From NCBI GenBank assembly GCA_903929475.1, contig CAIYUV010000142.1:1-50181 (forward strand): a stretch of DNA of 50,181 bases. Reading direction: 5' to 3'. Both the position numbers and the translations under genes were made by a program. Source of the DNA: an uncultured Spartobacteria bacterium. GTDB taxonomy: Bacteria; Verrucomicrobiota; Verrucomicrobiia; Chthoniobacterales; Chthoniobacteraceae. The notes under the pieces are model-generated. The model saw only the letters and a list, made by a program, of their open reading frames with translations. It had not been told where the DNA came from and did not search any database. Below, in pieces: positions 5,493 through 43,567 of this stretch. Every line of letters starts with the position of its first letter. Positions within the stretch are counted from its first letter, which is position 1.

Positions 5493-8400
5493 ATGCGCCG
5501 TCTATTTCTCACGTCAATTGCCGCAGTCACAGCGCTGCTGCACGCAGAGGTGGATTTTAATCGCGATGTGCAGCCGCTGCTTTCGGAAAATTGCTATCAA
5601 TGCCACGGGCCGGATGCGAAGGCGCGCAAGGCAAAGCTGCGGCTCGATGTGAAGGACGGGCCGGAGAGTCCCTTCCGGACGGAGGACGAAGTTACGGCAA
5701 TCAAGCCCGGAGACAGCAAGGGGAGTGATCTGGTTGCGCGAATTTTCACCAGCGACGAAGACGATGTGATGCCGCCGCTGAAATCAAAGCGGACGCTCAC
5801 GCAGGCGCAAAAGGAGACGCTGAAACGATGGATCGAGGAGGGTGCGAAGTGGGGACAGCACTGGGCGTTTGTTGCACCAAAGCGTCCGGCAGTGCCGGGG
5901 ATTGCGGATTGCGGATTGCGGATTGCAGATTTGCGCAAGCGTGACGCGAAACGCGCGGATGACTTGCAGGCGCAACTGCTGGCTCTCGCGAAGTGGCCGA
6001 AGAATGCGATTGATTCGTTTGTGCTCGCGCGCCAGCTCGGCGAAGGACTCACGCCGTCACCGGAGGCTGCGCCTGAAAAACTTTGTCGCCGACTTTATCT
6101 CGACCTCACCGGACTGCCGCCGACGCCTGCGGAAGTGGATGAGTTTTTGCGCGCGTGCGGAAATGGCGATGCAGCGAAACAAGACGCCGCAGTCACGGCG
6201 CTTGTGGATAAACTGCTTGCGAGTCCGCGCTACGGCGAGCGCATGGTGTGGGAGTGGCTGGAAGCTGCGCGCTATGCGGATACGAACGGCTATCAGGGTG
6301 ATCCGGTGCGCGCGATGTGGTATTGGCGCGACTGGGCAATCAAGGCGCTGAACGACAATATGCGGTTTGACCAATTTACCATCGAGCAAATCGCCGGAGA
6401 CCTATTGCCGGAACCGACGCAGGAGCAACTTGTCGCGACCGGCTTTCATCGAAACCACATGATCAACGGCGAGGGTGGGCGCATCCCCGAGGAGTCGCGT
6501 GTCGAGTATGTGCAGGATCGCGTGGAGACGACGGCGACGGTCTGGCTGGGGCTCACATTTACGTGCTGCCGATGCCACGATCACAAATACGATCCTTTCA
6601 AGCAAAGCGAATACTACAGCCTCAGCGCCTACTTTAACTCGCTCGATGAAACCGGTGGCAATGACAGCAACGGTCTGGCGAATCCCATCCTCAATCTCGT
6701 CGCTCCCGAGCAGCACAAGAAAATCGAGGCGCTGAAAGTCGAGGAGGACAAGGCGGCGGCGGGGAGTGATGCGTTGGAGAAAAAACTGCGCGAGGCACAG
6801 CCGGAGTGGGAGGCCGCGCTCCTCAAAAACACCGCTAAACTCGGCGAGCCGGAATGGCAGGTCATCAAGGTGGACGACACCATCAGCGAGAACGGGGCGA
6901 CGCTTACGAAGCAGGCTGATGGTTCGATTTTGCTGAGTGGGAAAAATCCGGACAGCGACGAACTGGTTGTGACCGCCATCACACAGATGTCGAAAGTCTC
7001 GGCGATTCGCATCGAGGTGCTGCCGGATGATTCGCTGCCAGACAAAGGATCAGGGCGGGCGCAGGATGGGGGATGGATTCTGAGCGAGATTCAGATGCTC
7101 GGCGACAGCAAGCCCATCAACCTTGCCCCGGTGCGCGCGGATTTTGAGCAGTCCGGCTCGACATTGCAAAATGCGCTCGATGGAAGGAACGAGACGGGCT
7201 GGAGCGTGGGTCCGCAGTTTGGAAAGCCGCACGAGGCCGTCTTCGAATTGCAGACTGATTTCGGATATCGCGCCGACAAACTCGTTTCCTTCCGGTTGCA
7301 ATTTCTGTCCAAGGAAAAACAGCGCGTCTTTGGAAAATTCCGCATCTCAATGACCGATTCGCCGGCAGCGCTGCTTCGTCCGATTCCTCCGGAAGTGTAT
7401 GCTGTGCTCGCCGTCCCTGTGGACAAGCGTGACGACAAGCAGCGCAAGAAACTGACCGACTACTATCTCGCGAGCGAGCCGCGACTCATCCTCGCCAAAA
7501 AACTGACCGCCGCTGCGAAGAGCGAGCGCAAAGCGGCAGACAGCGGTGCCGCGCGCACGATGATGATGCGCGACCGCGCGACGCCGCGCGACACTTTCAT
7601 CCTCGTGAAAGGCGCATACGACAAATTTGGCGACCGCGTCACACATGGCACGCCTGCTGTCCTGCCCGCGCTGCCGCCGGAAGCTCCCAAGAACCGTCTC
7701 TCGCTGGCGCGCTGGCTTGTTTCGCCGGAGAATCCGCTGACTGCGCGAGTGACGGTGAATCGCTACTGGCAGATGTTTTTCGGACGCGGGCTGGTGAAGA
7801 CGGTGGAGGATTTCGGCGTGCAGGGCGACAAGCCGACGAACCCGGAGTTGCTCGACTGGCTGGCGCGTGAATTCATCGAGAGCGGGTGGGATGTGAAGCA
7901 CATCCATCGTCTCATCGTCACGAGCGCCACGTATCGCCAGCAGTCGAAAGTGCCGCCGGGGATGTCCGAGCGTGATCCGGAAAATCAACTGCTCGCACGC
8001 GGCCCGCGTTTCCGTCTGCCGAGCTGGATGCTGCGCGACCAGGCGCTCGCGGTTTCGGGGTTGTTTGTAGAAAAAATGGGCGGTGCGCCGGTGAAGGTCT
8101 ATCAGCCAAAGGGAGTATGGGAGGACGCTACGTTCGGGCAGATCAAGTATTCGCAGGATCACGGCGAGGCGCTTTATCGAAGGAGTCTCTACATTTTCTG
8201 GCGGCGCATCATCGGGCCGACGCTCTTCTTCGACGTGTCTTCACGTCAAAACTGCGTGGTGAAAACAGGACGCACTAACACGCCGTTGCACGCGCTCGTG
8301 ACGCTGAACGATGTAACATACGTCGAGGCTGCCCGCGCACTCGCGGAGCGGATGCTGAAATTCAACACGACAGACGATGCGGCGCGGTTGGCATACGGTT

Positions 8401-31484: not shown

Positions 31485-33074
31485 ATGTTTGTCAGCATCT
31501 TTAACGATGTCATCGGTCCCGTCATGCGCGGGCCTTCGAGTTCACACTGCGCGGCGGCGCTTCGCATCGGCAGACTCGCGCTCGATTTGATGGGCGGGGA
31601 AATCAGCGACGTGCTCGTTGAATTTGATCGCGGCGGCGCGCTGCCGACGACGCACGACACGCAAGGCTCGGACATGGGCCTTTTCGGCGGGCTGATGGGC
31701 TGGGATGCGGCGGATGAACGCCTGCCCGGCTCGATGCAAACGCTGAGCGACAGCGGCGTGAAAATCCGTATCGAGACCGTGGACGTGGGCGACCCGCACC
31801 CGAATACCTACCGCCTCACGCTCACGAACGCCCGCGAGCGCCACACTCTGCGCGCCATCTCCACCGGCGGCGGCATGATGGAAGTGCTCGACGTGGACGG
31901 CTTCGCCATTTCGATGTTCGGCGATTATTTCGAGACGCTCTTTTGGGCGACGGGCGACGGCGCTGCGCTGCGCGCGAAAATCGCATCGCTCGTAGAGGCG
32001 GATGCCGTCCTGCTGCACGAGCACGGCGGCGTGCAAATCGTCGAGGTGAAAGCACAGCAGTTCGTCCCCGACTCCGTGATCGCGGAACTGCGCAGCGCGG
32101 GCCTCGTCAGCGCCGTGAAGCGCCTCGCGCCCGTCCTCCCGGTGAAGTCCCGCAGCACGACGCACGTTCCTTTTACCACCTGCGCCGAGATGCTCGTGCA
32201 CGACGCGGGAAAAAACACACCGCTTTGGAAACTCGCCGTCGCCTACGAGTGCGAGCGCGGCGGATTGAGCGAGACGGAGGTCGTCGAAATGATGACCGGC
32301 ATCGTCCGCATCTTGCGCCGTTCCATCGCGCAGGGCATCGCCGGCACGAGCTACGAAGACCGCGTGCTCGGGCACCAGTCCGGCGGTTTTGCGGAGCAAA
32401 TGAAAGCCGGACGCCTCCTCGACGCGGGCGCGCTGAACCGCATCATCCTTTACGTCACTGCGCTCATGGAGGTGAAAAGCTCGATGGGCGTCATCGTCGC
32501 CATGCCCACCGCCGGGGCGTGCGCCGCGCTGCCCGGCGCAGTCATCGCGATGGCCGAGGAGATGAAGCTCAGCGAGGAGGAAATGGCGAAAGCCATTCTC
32601 GCGAGCGGACTCATCGGCGTATTCATCGCGACCGCCTGGACGTTTGCAGCGGAAGTCGGCGGCTGCCAGGCCGAAGGCGGCTCCGCAGCGGCGATGGCCG
32701 CGGCCGCATTGGTCACGATGGCCGGCGGCACGCTCGCGCAATCCGTCGCCGCCGCATCCATGGCGATGCAAAGTATGATCGGCCTCATCTGCGATCCCAT
32801 CGCCAACCGCGTCGAAGCCCCGTGCCTCGGCAAAAACGTCATGGCCGCCGCAAACGCACTCTCCTGCGCAAACATGGCGATGGCCGGTTTCGACCAAGTC
32901 ATCCCGCTCGACGAAGTCATCGAAACCGCCAAGCAAGTCGCCAAGCAAATGCCCCGCGAACTTCGCTGCACCGCCCTCGGTGGCCTCTCCATCACCCCCA
33001 CCTCGCTAGCCATTGAAAAGAAACTCGCCGGAAAAAGAGCCGCGTGCGGCGCAGGGTCGTGCGGGTGTAAGTGA
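31485..33074 (+). CDS. sdaA: L-serine ammonia-lyase, iron-sulfur dependent
   Basis: A 529-residue single-chain L-serine dehydratase that converts serine to pyruvate and ammonia. The N-terminal beta domain has GPVMRGPSSSHCAAA (about 10-24) and an ACT-like segment; the alpha domain starts near 225. Candidate Fe-S ligand cysteines lie in PTAGACAALPG, AAEVGGCQAEGG and NRVEAPCLGKN, so the cluster site looks intact. It ends with a Cys-rich tail (ACGAGSCGCK). It is divergent from prs (187 bases). A hairpin follows at 33085-33114. Confidence 0.94.
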   Translation: MFVSIFNDVIGPVMRGPSSSHCAAALRIGRLALDLMGGEISDVLVEFDRGGALPTTHDTQGSDMGLFGGLMGWDAADERLPGSMQTLSDSGVKIRIETVDVGDPHPNTYRLTLTNARERHTLRAISTGGGMMEVLDVDGFAISMFGDYFETLFWATGDGAALRAKIASLVEADAVLLHEHGGVQIVEVKAQQFVPDSVIAELRSAGLVSAVKRLAPVLPVKSRSTTHVPFTTCAEMLVHDAGKNTPLWKLAVAYECERGGLSETEVVEMMTGIVRILRRSIAQGIAGTSYEDRVLGHQSGGFAEQMKAGRLLDAGALNRIILYVTALMEVKSSMGVIVAMPTAGACAALPGAVIAMAEEMKLSEEEMAKAILASGLIGVFIATAWTFAAEVGGCQAEGGSAAAMAAAALVTMAGGTLAQSVAAASMAMQSMIGLICDPIANRVEAPCLGKNVMAAANALSCANMAMAGFDQVIPLDEVIETAKQVAKQMPRELRCTALGGLSITPTSLAIEKKLAGKRAACGAGSCGCK

Positions 33075-33084
33075 GGGGGCGTGA

Positions 33085-33114
33085 CTCGTAGGTCGTAGCG
33101 TCCCGACGGACGAG
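33085..33114. terminator. Hairpin just downstream of sdaA
   Basis: CTCGT (33085-33089) pairs with ACGAG (33110-33114) and GTCG (33092-33095) with CGAC (33104-33107), separated by a 2x2 internal loop. It starts 11 bases after the sdaA stop. There is no T run, so termination would be weak or Rho-assisted; it may instead be a dispersed palindrome. Confidence 0.35.
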
Positions 33115-33139
33115 ATAGCAGCCTGTTTCAAAAGGGGAA

Positions 33140-33475
33140 CCTCGTTGCGGGCATTTTATGGGAGCAGGGGAGAGGAAAATACGTCATTTCATACCGTTTC
33201 CGGGAGCAAAAAAACAGGCAGCACGTCGTTCCGAGCCATTTCCGGGAGCGAAAAAAGACATAGCACGTCGTGATTTGTTATATTTGGGAGGCAAAAAACA
33301 GTCAGCACGACGTTCCTTGTTATTTTTGGGAGGCAAAAAGGGGGCAGCACGTCGTTCCATGCCATTTTGCGGAGCCGAGAGGCTTGTATCACGTCGTTCC
33401 AAGGCATTTTTGGGAGCCAAAAAAGGCTTAACTCGACGTTCCAAGACATTTTCCGGAGCGAAAAACAGGTTGATT
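33140..33475. repeat. Eight-unit 42-bp tandem repeat array
   Basis: Eight units of exactly 42 bases start at 33140, 33182, 33224, 33266, 33308, 33350, 33392 and 33434. The shared core is CGTCGTTCC, then about 7 bases to a T run, GGGAGC, then A-rich sequence and CA. The first unit is the most degenerate. Units vary throughout, so it is not a CRISPR (no constant repeat with distinct spacers). The array is A/T-richer than its surroundings and lies in the 717-base gap between sdaA and rapA. A 42-base period keeps translation in frame; at least one plus and two minus frames remain open across it. Confidence 0.95.
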
Positions 33476-33514
33476 TCACTTTCAACCGACACAAAAACAG
33501 CAATTAACGCATAA
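33158..33514 (+). CDS. Possible basic repeat protein across the tandem array
   Basis: A 118-residue open frame that translates the array into a 14-residue repeat with consensus ARRSxxFxGAKKxx. Several differences between units fall at third codon positions in this frame (CGT/CGA for Arg, GCA/GCG/GCC for Ala, AAA/AAG for Lys), which suits coding. However, the reverse-strand frame across Arg-Arg also stays synonymous, so the evidence does not choose. There is no ribosome site before ATG 33158. The product would be very basic and probably disordered or nucleic-acid binding. It may equally be a non-coding repeat. Confidence 0.3.
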   Translation: MGAGERKIRHFIPFPGAKKQAARRSEPFPGAKKDIARRDLLYLGGKKQSARRSLLFLGGKKGAARRSMPFCGAERLVSRRSKAFLGAKKGLTRRSKTFSGAKNRLISLSTDTKTAINA

Positions 33515-33791
33515 ATCCAGTGTTCCATAGCATTCCCAAAGGAACAATTGGCAGCACCCCTGAAAATACCCGCCATCCAGCCCGCCAATCCGCCAATTCA
33601 ACATTCCTTTGCCAAGAACTCCAGTTCTCGGTGCCCTCCGCCCGCCATGCCAACCCCATTCCACCCCCGTCAACTCCCCTGCGGCTCAATACTATCCTAA
33701 AAGGGTAGTTCACACAAAACGCCTCATCGCGAGATGGCAGGCAAAGTCCGTTGCCAAAAGCGATGCGATGCGTAGTCTCCGCGCCCTTTTT
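33476..33791. other. Non-coding spacer between repeat array and rapA
   Basis: These 316 bases hold no convincing gene. They begin with A/T-rich sequence that may be a decayed continuation of the 42-bp array (TGTTCCATAGCATT at 33520-33533 resembles the unit core). Further on are two close CCGCCAAT copies, a dyad at 33612-33631 with GAACT/AGTTC arms, and a short CTATCC/GGGTAG hairpin near 33692-33708. Control elements for rapA are likely to lie here. Confidence 0.5.
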
Positions 33792-36521
33792 ATGAGCAAG
33801 CCAATAGCGGGACAACGATGGGTGAGTGACAGCGAGCCGGAGCTGGGGCTCGGGATTATTCTGCGCGCGGAGTTCGGGCGCGTGGAGGTGTTTTTTCATG
33901 CGGCGGGGGAGCAGCGGCAGTATGCGATGGAGTCGGCACCGCTGCGCCGGGTGCAGTTTGCGGTGGGGGATAAAATCAAATCGCACGAAGGGAAGGAGCT
34001 GGTCGTGGAGGCGGTGGAGGATCGCAAGGGGCTGCTGGTGTATCGCTGCGGCAAGCGCGATTTGCCGGAGGCGGAGCTTTCGGATTCGATCAGTTTCAGC
34101 AAGCCGGAGGATCGGCTGTTTGCGGGGCAGGTGGATGAGCTGGCGACGTTCGATTTGCGCACGGAGGCGCTGCGCAGGCGGAGTGAACTGCGGCGTTCGC
34201 GGGTGCGGGGCTTTGTGGGAGGTCGTGTGGATTTGCTGCCGCACCAGATGTTCATCGCGGGGGAGGTGGCGGGGCGGCTGGTGCCGCGCGTGTTGCTGGC
34301 GGACGAGGTGGGGCTGGGGAAGACGATTGAGGCGGGGTTGATTTTGCACCGGCTGCACATCACGGGCCGTGCGCCGCGAATCCTGATTCTGGTGCCGGAG
34401 CCGCTGGTGCATCAGTGGTTCGTGGAGATGTATCGGCGCTTTAACATGCTGTTCAGCCTTTTCGACGAGGAGCGCTGCGGGGCGATTGAATTGCACGACG
34501 CGGAGGCGAATCCGTTCCTCGATAGTCAGCTCGTGATTTGCAGCATCGGCTTTCTCGCGAAGAGCGAGGCGCGCACTCGGCAGGTGGTGGAGGCGGGCTG
34601 GGATTTGCTGGTGGTGGACGAGGCGCATCACATGGAATGGACGCCGCAGGCGGCGAGTCCGCAGTATTCGCTCGTCGAGGCGCTGGCGCAAAAAACGCCG
34701 GGGCTTCTCCTTCTCACGGCGACACCGCAGCAACTCGGGCCGGAGGGGCATTTCGCACGGCTCCGATTGCTCGATGCGAACCGTTACGATGATCTCGGGA
34801 AATTTGTGGAGGAGGCGGAGCACTACGAGCAGGTGGCGCTGGCGCTGGATCGTTTGCTCGCGGGTCAGGCGTTGAGCGCTGCGGATCGGAAACTTTTTGC
34901 AAGCCAGTCCCCGCGCATCGCCCAGCACTGCGACGCTCTCGCCGATGATGCTGCCGCGCGCACAAGTCTCGTGGGCGAATTGCTCGATGCTTTCGGAACG
35001 GGGCGCGTGATGTTTCGCAATACTCGTGCTGCGCTGTCGGGTTTTCCGAAGCGCAAGGCGCGCCTCGTGCCGCTCACGGGCGAAGACGAGACGGATGCGA
35101 AGGTGAAGTGGCTGGCGGGTTTGCTGCGGGAGTTTGAGGGCGAAAAGATTCTGCTCATTTGCAAAACGCGCGCGCTCGTGGAGGAAATCGCCGAGCGCCT
35201 CCAGCGCGTGGTGAATGTGAATGCGGGTGTCTTCCACGAGGGGCTCACGCTGCTTCAACGCGACCGCAACGCAGCGTATTTCTCGGAACCGGAGGGTGCG
35301 CGCATTTTGATCTGCTCGGAAATCGGCAGCGAAGGGCGGAACTTCCAGTTTGCGCATCATCTCGCGCTTTTCGATCTGCCATCGAATCCCGAATTGCTAG
35401 AGCAACGCATCGGTCGCCTCGATCGCATCGGGCAGACGGCGACGATTCAAATCCACGTCCCCTACGTGAAGGGCAGCGACTCGGAAGTGCTTGCGCGCTG
35501 GTATCACGAGGGCCTCGGCGCGTTTGAAAAAAATCCCCACGGCGCGGCGGAGATCGGTCGAGAGCTGAGCGAGACGCTCGCGGTGCTCTGCGAGAAGTTC
35601 GATGCGAAAAAGCTGACTGCTTTCATCAAGAAGACGCGCGACCTCCACGCGAAGGTCGCGAAGAAGCTCGAGCGCGGTCATGACCGTCTGCTCGAACTGA
35701 ATTCGTGCAAGCCCGCGCAGGCTGCGGAATTGATTCAAGCTGTCCGCGCTGCCGATGCGGACGAAGGTTTTGAAAAGTTCTGCATCGAGCTTTTCGACCA
35801 CTTCGGCGTGCAGGTGGAGGATCACAGCATTCGCACGTTGTTGCTCAAGCCGGGGCATCTGATTACCGATGCATTCCCTGCGATTCCTGCCGACGGAATG
35901 ACGGTGACTTTCGACCGCACGCGCGCGCTGAGCCGCGAGGACATCGGGCTGATGACAGGCGACCATCCGCTCATCACGAGTTCGCTGGATTTACTGCTCG
36001 GCGCCGAATCAGGAAACAGCGCCTTCGGTGTTTGGAAAGGCGGCTCCGAGGCCATCTTCCTGGAAATTCATTCCGTCGTGGAATGTGTCGCGCCCGCCGC
36101 ACTGCACGTGGATCGATTTCTGCCAGCGACACCGGTGCGTGTCGTGGTGGATCACGCGCTCGCTGAGCGCGGCGATGATGAGGAGCTACGCGAGGCGCAT
36201 CTGGAGAAGGGCGATATTTTCCGTCTGCTCGATCGCGGCGCCGTGAAGCGAAAGTTGCTCCCTTCAATGCTAAGCAAAGCACAGGCGTTCGCCGCTGATC
36301 GGATGAAGACACTCGTCGCCGACGCTGCGGCAGCAATGAACACTCAACTCGCCGCAGAAATCGAGCGACTGGAAACACTCCGCACGATCAACGATCATGT
36401 TCGTCCCGAGGAAATCGCCGCCTTGCAGCAGCAGAAAAACGAGCTGCAAAGTGCAATCGAATCGGCGCGCTTGAGGCTGGATTCGCTCCGGCTCGTGCTT
36501 CGCCTGCCGGCGGGAAAATAA
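33792..36521 (+). CDS. rapA: RapA-type Swi2/Snf2 ATPase
   Basis: A 909-residue homologue of E. coli RapA (968 aa), the RNA-polymerase-associated ATPase that recycles polymerase. The N-terminus MSKPIAGQRWVSDSEPELGLG and the KPEDRLFAGQVDEL segment match RapA's Tudor-like N-terminal domains closely, not just the helicase core. Walker A is DEVGLGKT (171-178) and the DEAH box is at 276-279; RIGRLDRIGQ is motif VI. The C-terminal region continues in RapA fashion, with coiled-coil stretches near the end. The frame is open back to 33609, but ATG 33792 matches the RapA start. It precedes the PDH genes by 56 bases. Confidence 0.92.
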   Translation: MSKPIAGQRWVSDSEPELGLGIILRAEFGRVEVFFHAAGEQRQYAMESAPLRRVQFAVGDKIKSHEGKELVVEAVEDRKGLLVYRCGKRDLPEAELSDSISFSKPEDRLFAGQVDELATFDLRTEALRRRSELRRSRVRGFVGGRVDLLPHQMFIAGEVAGRLVPRVLLADEVGLGKTIEAGLILHRLHITGRAPRILILVPEPLVHQWFVEMYRRFNMLFSLFDEERCGAIELHDAEANPFLDSQLVICSIGFLAKSEARTRQVVEAGWDLLVVDEAHHMEWTPQAASPQYSLVEALAQKTPGLLLLTATPQQLGPEGHFARLRLLDANRYDDLGKFVEEAEHYEQVALALDRLLAGQALSAADRKLFASQSPRIAQHCDALADDAAARTSLVGELLDAFGTGRVMFRNTRAALSGFPKRKARLVPLTGEDETDAKVKWLAGLLREFEGEKILLICKTRALVEEIAERLQRVVNVNAGVFHEGLTLLQRDRNAAYFSEPEGARILICSEIGSEGRNFQFAHHLALFDLPSNPELLEQRIGRLDRIGQTATIQIHVPYVKGSDSEVLARWYHEGLGAFEKNPHGAAEIGRELSETLAVLCEKFDAKKLTAFIKKTRDLHAKVAKKLERGHDRLLELNSCKPAQAAELIQAVRAADADEGFEKFCIELFDHFGVQVEDHSIRTLLLKPGHLITDAFPAIPADGMTVTFDRTRALSREDIGLMTGDHPLITSSLDLLLGAESGNSAFGVWKGGSEAIFLEIHSVVECVAPAALHVDRFLPATPVRVVVDHALAERGDDEELREAHLEKGDIFRLLDRGAVKRKLLPSMLSKAQAFAADRMKTLVADAAAAMNTQLAAEIERLETLRTINDHVRPEEIAALQQQKNELQSAIESARLRLDSLRLVLRLPAGK

Positions 36522-43177: not shown

Positions 43178-43567
43178 ATGGCAGATATCAGCACAATCGT
43201 TGATCAACTCAGCAGCCTCACCGTCCTCGAAGTCGCGGACCTCGTGAAGCAACTCGAAACCAAGTGGGGCGTCAGCGCCGCGGCACCAGTGGCCGCAGTC
43301 GCAGCCTCCGGCGGTGGTGGTGGCGGTGCAGCCGCTGCACCAGCGGAAGAAAAGACCGCATTCGATATCGTCCTCAAGGAGGCCGGTGCGAACAAGATCA
43401 ACGTCATCAAGGAAGTCCGCGCCGCAGTGCCCGGCCTCGGCCTCGCCGAAGCCAAGGCCCTCGTCGAAGGCGCGCCCAAGACCCTCAAGGAAGGCGCGAC
43501 CAAAGCCGAAGCCGAAGAGATCAAGAAGAAGCTCGAAGCAGCCGGCGCGAAGGTCGAGATCAAGTAA
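43178..43567 (+). CDS. rplL: 50S ribosomal protein bL12 (L7/L12)
   Basis: A 129-residue bL12, the stalk protein that recruits translation GTPases. The N-terminal dimerisation domain ([27 protein letters not shown]) and C-terminal domain ([22 protein letters not shown]... [13 protein letters not shown]) flank a Gly/Ala-rich hinge (about 45-65). The start at ATG 43178 fits homologues; in-frame codons upstream are not used. Neither rplJ nor rpoB is adjacent, unlike the usual rplJ-rplL-rpoBC layout, and the gene has its own promoter, leader and terminator. Confidence 0.96.

Follow-up and report, generated by a model that had tools for sequence, protein, structure and literature searches.

An intergenic array of eight diverged 42-bp units, with open reading frames on both strands, raises the question of what kind of element it is. 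It lies in a stretch of 50,181 nucleotides (the window) of contig CAIYUV010000142.1, from an uncultured Spartobacteria bacterium. A fused SDH_alpha/beta gene (L-serine dehydratase) at 31485-33074 flanks it on one side, and rapA, from about 33795, on the other. The original prediction described eight 42-base units with zero indels in a low-GC gap beside rapA, and proposed that selection acts on unit length through a protein frame, DNA binding or RNA structure. This layout is borne out at 33140-33475. The array has a lag-42 identity of 0.67, whereas none of 2000 shuffles exceeded 0.35, and its GC content is 49%, compared with 59% for the window. The features of the locus are as follows.

33140-33475, no strand: tandem array of eight diverged 42-bp units, recognized by lag-42 identity
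Within 33140-33475: near-dyad core of the consensus unit, TTTTTGGgagCCAAAAA; stem p = 0.045 against shuffles
33158-33514, plus strand: 118-aa open reading frame through the array, judged not to be a gene (no family match, neutral codon statistics)
33229-33379, no strand: 150-bp segment with the highest wedge-model curvature in the window (shortening 0.35, runner-up segment 0.21)
33482-33516, plus strand: A/C-rich leader of the family-1 FN3 type, with no gene after it here
33078-33744, no strand: variable spacer from the serine dehydratase gene to the conserved rapA upstream region, delimited by alignment with three close relatives

Two further short tandem repeats occur in the window, at 43452-43507 (24-bp units) and 5899-5931 (7-bp units).

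The array's own genome (4.5 Mb, 295 contigs) was surveyed by sampled stretches. DNA matches to the window array were found there in two other intergenic arrays, on contigs C202 and C138. In the sampled part, nine of 11 arrays of at least 60 bp have a period of 21 or 42 bp and the other two of 18 bp, in a non-random sample that includes contigs picked for holding matches. Downstream of the array on C138 lie a leader and then a gene of 319 aa, whose product has a weak FN3 domain (family 1). Protein matches to family 1 occur at seven places in the same genome, fragments included, and at the level of the order 16 of 147 genomes contain relatives, at that of the phylum 4 of 288. A second family (family 2, 233 aa), found via the 21-bp array preceding one copy, is present in 22 and 6 of these genomes, respectively. 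The two families are homologous by profile comparison (97.9%, E 5e-13), and each profile finds FN3 domains among solved structures; Pfam searches of the proteins returned only FN3-type plus scattered weak matches. These poorly characterized FN3-type genes reach up to 19 copies per genome. A phage or plasmid origin of family 1 was rejected, as no relatives were found in viral contigs, phages or plasmids, and a defence system was rejected on a PADLOC search of the proteins that gave no match.

We called arrays by autocorrelation in the 650-700 bp adjoining each gene, using thresholds of 0.56 and 0.58; for the former, shuffles reached at most 0.49. In family 1 an upstream array was called for 33 of 50 genes, with a lag of 21, 41, 42, 82 or 84 in 32 cases and periods mostly of 41/42 bp. 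Downstream and far upstream of the same family, arrays were called in 4 of 52 and 1 of 43 cases, with those lags in none (0/52 and 0/43). Family 2 has an upstream array in 62 of 81 genes, 61 of them near 21n bp (lag 21 in 39, 22 in three, 42 in 12, 63 and 64 in two each, and 44, 82 and 84), and a downstream array in 9 of 83, none near 21n (0/83). All eight family-2 copies tested in the array's own genome carry an upstream array. Random 650-bp tiles gave a lag of 21, 42 or 84 in 4 of 180 cases in that genome and in 0 of 466 in relatives, most of them without the gene. Over both families, a 21n period fits 93 of the 95 upstream arrays detected; arrays of related genes, as copies related by descent, are not fully independent, and most of the genomes are draft assemblies in which arrays can be misassembled. 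The arrays stand about 50-400 bp from the FN3 gene, ending a median of 166 bp upstream, and no array was detectable for roughly one in three family-1 genes and one in four family-2 genes.

Arrays related to that of the window are found upstream of FN3-type genes, with 41-bp, 22-bp and other periods among them. The link to rapA is incidental: it is the element preceding FN3-type genes that the window array resembles, rather than that of rapA. A literature search, with most subscription journals outside its scope, found nothing relevant on 21-bp arrays in verrucomicrobia or on arrays of this type preceding FN3 genes, and this class in Verrucomicrobiota is apparently undescribed so far. Arrays with a 21n period that do not adjoin an FN3 gene also exist in the array's own genome. 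One 21-bp array (G000:C70:4254-4734, L104) lies upstream of a non-FN3 gene, whose product we read, by eye, as DUF1259-type; some 21n arrays therefore stand outside the FN3 cassettes.

At the window locus itself, the A/C-rich leader provides the connection to family 1, where leaders of this kind stand just before the start codon. When both strands of the 50-kb window were searched, the leader of G006:C4 matched 28 of 34 positions at 33482, compared with 20 for the next best site, on the other strand. Three other family-1 leaders also peak at 33482-33483 (22-24 of 34). No family-1 gene was found on the window contig. The leader therefore suggests that an FN3 gene formerly stood downstream of the window array and has since been lost. 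Three close relatives (G007, G005 and L017) align to about 33078 and/or from 33728-33744, and not between. Their spacers hold an open reading frame plus a pair in G007 (C79), another open reading frame in G005 (C216), and unrelated sequence in L017. The pair in G007 is presumably of RelB/RelE type, as read by eye; in this relative the dehydratase is 98% identical and the array is absent. The region from the serine dehydratase gene to rapA is a variable intergenic island in which four close relatives differ. We conclude that array and leader probably survive in it as an orphan copy, without their gene. A promoter-like stretch, TTGCCAAAAGCGATGCGATGCGTAGTCT, precedes rapA at 33744-33795, and a near-copy of it precedes the toxin-antitoxin-like pair in G007:C79 (L274).

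Our preferred reading, to which we give an even chance, is that the window array is an orphaned, cis-acting and helically phased DNA element, acting by shape and derived from upstream of FN3 cassettes. Comparison of the arrays with each other shows which of their properties persist. In G006, two paralogues (C116 and C65) have proteins 92% identical and leader plus gene DNA 89.5% identical, and their arrays are 48% alike, equal to random. Orthologous family-2 genes of G001 and G006 share about 80% DNA identity and have arrays without BLAST similarity, and among five family-2 paralogues of the array's own genome similarity starts near the gene-side edge of the array. Copy number at an orthologous family-1 locus is 9.6 in one species and 3.5 in another. 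The periods, on the other hand, cluster near 21n (21-22, 41-44, 63-64 and 82-84 bp). Selection on unit length, as originally proposed, thus finds support in that length is the conserved property across the array class; it does not find it within the window array alone.

Symmetry persists along with period. Consensus units of 73 non-redundant arrays (under 66% alike) have a mean self-complementarity of 0.59, compared with 0.49 in dinucleotide shuffles (Fisher p 4.5e-27). Units of 41/42 bp have a second dyad at a distance of 21 bp (mean z 1.26, n = 21). Columns in symmetric pairs are less variable than others (13.5% vs 20.0%), a soft result since the paired columns were picked from the consensus. 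For the window array itself the dyad symmetry is marginal (whole-unit p = 0.22, with the stem value listed above). No shared recognition sequence emerged across the 73 arrays beyond weak k-mer enrichment, and a common motif such as GGAG/CTCC was likewise weak. REP/BIME palindromes were rejected as well, with a private sequence in each array and only two other DNA matches to the window array in its own genome. Array sequences are private, and period and dyad symmetry persist.

These observations bear directly on the possibility that the arrays are inert minisatellites, arising by slippage or unequal exchange, with a period held by descent, symmetry produced by hairpin-driven template switching, and no function. 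The rapid change of array sequence and copy number would fit this well, as would the absence of a compensatory excess within arrays and the persistence of the window copy without a gene. Like bacterial intergenic minisatellites (VNTR), the arrays are tandem and variable in copy number; unlike them, they are tied to one gene superfamily, to its upstream side and to a near-fixed helical period. Sequence is saturated and yet the periods hold at 21-22 and 41-44 bp, which neutral indels should blur. The 21n fit is seen in nearly all detected upstream arrays and in no downstream ones, and paired columns are more conserved. We consider an inert origin unlikely, though it is a serious contender, and the array period could be partly inherited by descent.

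A second possibility is that the arrays act as structured RNA, with repeated hairpins transcribed as a 5' leader or a repeat RNA in the pattern of type III toxin-antitoxin loci. In such loci (ToxIN, CptIN, TenpIN) a tandem array lies immediately upstream of a single gene. The arrays here resemble them in standing upstream of a gene (in the relatives, the window copy having none), their units are hairpin-capable, and family-2 copies have a hairpin-capable stretch between array and gene. They differ in protein type, in the absence of an RNA signature and in an array that is not matched to its protein. ToxN, AbiQ, CptN and TenpN toxins gave no PADLOC match, in keeping with the Pfam results above, and specificity of array for cognate protein was not seen, as judged indirectly from the 92% identical proteins with unrelated arrays.

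The pattern of substitution also speaks against RNA. Single changes in pairs are balanced between G-U (354) and A-C (343), and double compensatory changes within arrays number 88, against 89 expected; in neither of two tests did within-array compensatory change exceed the null. Structure in a sense-strand RNA should favour G-U, so the balance points to a DNA-level feature. Family 1 alone shows 92 G-U and 68 A-C changes (p = 0.07). No Rfam family was found in the window (32000-35000 searched), and RNA does not account for 21-bp phasing. We infer that the arrays are a DNA-level rather than an RNA feature, and regard structured RNA as quite improbable. Among the three routes of selection first proposed, the RNA route thus loses ground, and the DNA-helix option (42 = 4 x 10.5) fits best, with the periods of the array class near 21n.

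Predicted curvature is consistent with the shape-based reading. The curvature results are model-dependent and vary with the wedge parameters chosen. In random tandem arrays the model yields strong bending only near periods of 20-22 and 40-44 bp. Bending is stronger for the real arrays than for period-matched arrays of shuffled units (p = 0.0035), and across 83 loci predicted curvature is 0.087 inside arrays and 0.035 outside (p 9e-10). Column-permuted versions of the window array with equal period are less bent, so period alone leaves the window curvature unexplained. An AA/TT-only model of the window array gave a weaker result (p = 0.09). A half-turn-spacer control is unclean for 42-bp units, because two 5-bp inserts give 52 bp, which is in phase again, and the curvature argument therefore relies on the period scan.

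The arrays could also be sequence-specific operators, each with a regulator co-evolving with its locus. Dyads 21 bp apart would suit dimers on one helical face, and the arrays end where a promoter region is expected. However, shared k-mers are weak, paralogues within one genome have unrelated arrays, and no regulator gene was recognized beside the examined cassettes. This explanation appears decidedly improbable.

Coding was the most conspicuous suggestion of the sequence, since open reading frames of 118 aa (plus), 134 aa (minus) and 104 aa (minus) cross most of the array. The three open frames originally reported hold for roughly seven units; across all eight, only one plus frame is stop-free. 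As 42 is a multiple of 3, a repeated stop-free unit stays stop-free. The probability that one frame of a unit with the composition of the window array is open is about 0.45, and about 1% of neutral simulations kept three or more frames open across seven diverged units. The triple open frames are only a mild anomaly. No 3-base periodicity in variability was detected over the eight units (p = 0.65), and in the plus frame the least variable codon position is the third. The synonymous fraction is 0.17, compared with 0.19 under neutrality, and the neutral expectation holds in all three plus frames, with no sign of purifying selection. Protein family searches with the 118-aa plus frame gave no match; a minus frame gave one weak Pfam match, below the cut-off. 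Lags not divisible by 3 (22, 41, 44, 64 or 82) occur in 17 of 93 related arrays, and a 41-bp unit puts the sister array on C138, in the same genome, out of frame. A repeat protein (ARRSxxFxGAKKxx) thus has in its favour a frame open through every unit of the array and unit lengths, 42 and 21, that are both multiples of 3, but these substitution patterns and periods led us to reject coding in any frame, and selection on unit length through a protein frame with it, as extremely improbable.

The shape-based reading can be put in mechanistic terms. The element would be a head-to-tail array, with a period near a multiple of the helical repeat and units in which dyad axes tend to be spaced by 21 bp, set upstream of FN3 genes at the distances given above. 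A 21n period together with dyads at this spacing would align sites or bends along a single helix face. The base sequence would be free to change, and the element may act by DNA shape, either through phased bending or through a structure-reading protein on one helical face. The array would modulate how the cassette behind it is transcribed, and its copy number may serve for fine adjustment. At the window locus the gene itself would have been lost, and the array and leader left behind. Judging from sequence comparison, a regulatory role of the arrays on downstream FN3 genes is probable. More broadly, and only tentatively, each FN3 gene copy may have a private array serving as a cis-regulatory or architectural element that is read by period and symmetry rather than sequence. 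Such arrays could be exchanged or rewritten with function kept, given a repeat of about 21n and dyads on one helical face.

Among proven cases, the closest is the T-tract rheostat of Helicobacter pylori sabA, in which repeat length alters local DNA structure and promoter output (PMC4081817). Both are intergenic repeats upstream of a gene whose length varies between lineages, here between species (9.6 and 3.5 copies), and in sabA as in the arrays repeat length shifts helical phase and curvature. The sabA tract, in contrast, is a homopolymer next to a -35 element with demonstrated effects, whereas the arrays consist of dyad-bearing 21n-bp units of many unrelated sequences beside two gene families, and their effect is a presumed one. 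Phased A-tract curved DNA (surveyed in PMC3940949 and PMC4060949) is similar in having elements phased at about 10.5 bp and predicted curvature. The arrays share a period that is a multiple of about 10.5 bp and a predicted, model-dependent curvature above that of their flanks; in contrast to A-tract DNA, this curvature comes largely from 21n-bp tandem repetition, and many units are without an A-tract.

If the shape-based reading is correct, it would describe a DNA element conserved in geometry and free in sequence, with many copies in each genome and a link to a single gene superfamily. Control by shape would be cleanly testable in this system, as phase and sequence can be changed independently. 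It would also explain one kind of verrucomicrobial 21-/42-bp repeat that might be wrongly taken to encode repeat proteins, and the arrays give a handle on the FN3-type genes.

Some further features were observed around the FN3 cassettes. Downstream of some family-1 cassettes there are reading frames with collagen-like Gly-X-Y repeats (L242 and L243 in G014), and small W-rich open reading frames (e.g. MGDWDDPSTVWDEFFWD) lie between array and gene at L228 and L231. Just downstream of family-2 genes in the array's own genome, similar G+C-rich inverted repeats occur at L299, L303, L305 and L307, followed by a T-rich stretch (CCGCACGGCTCGCG...GTGCGGCTTTGGTTTT), an arrangement that is terminator-like.
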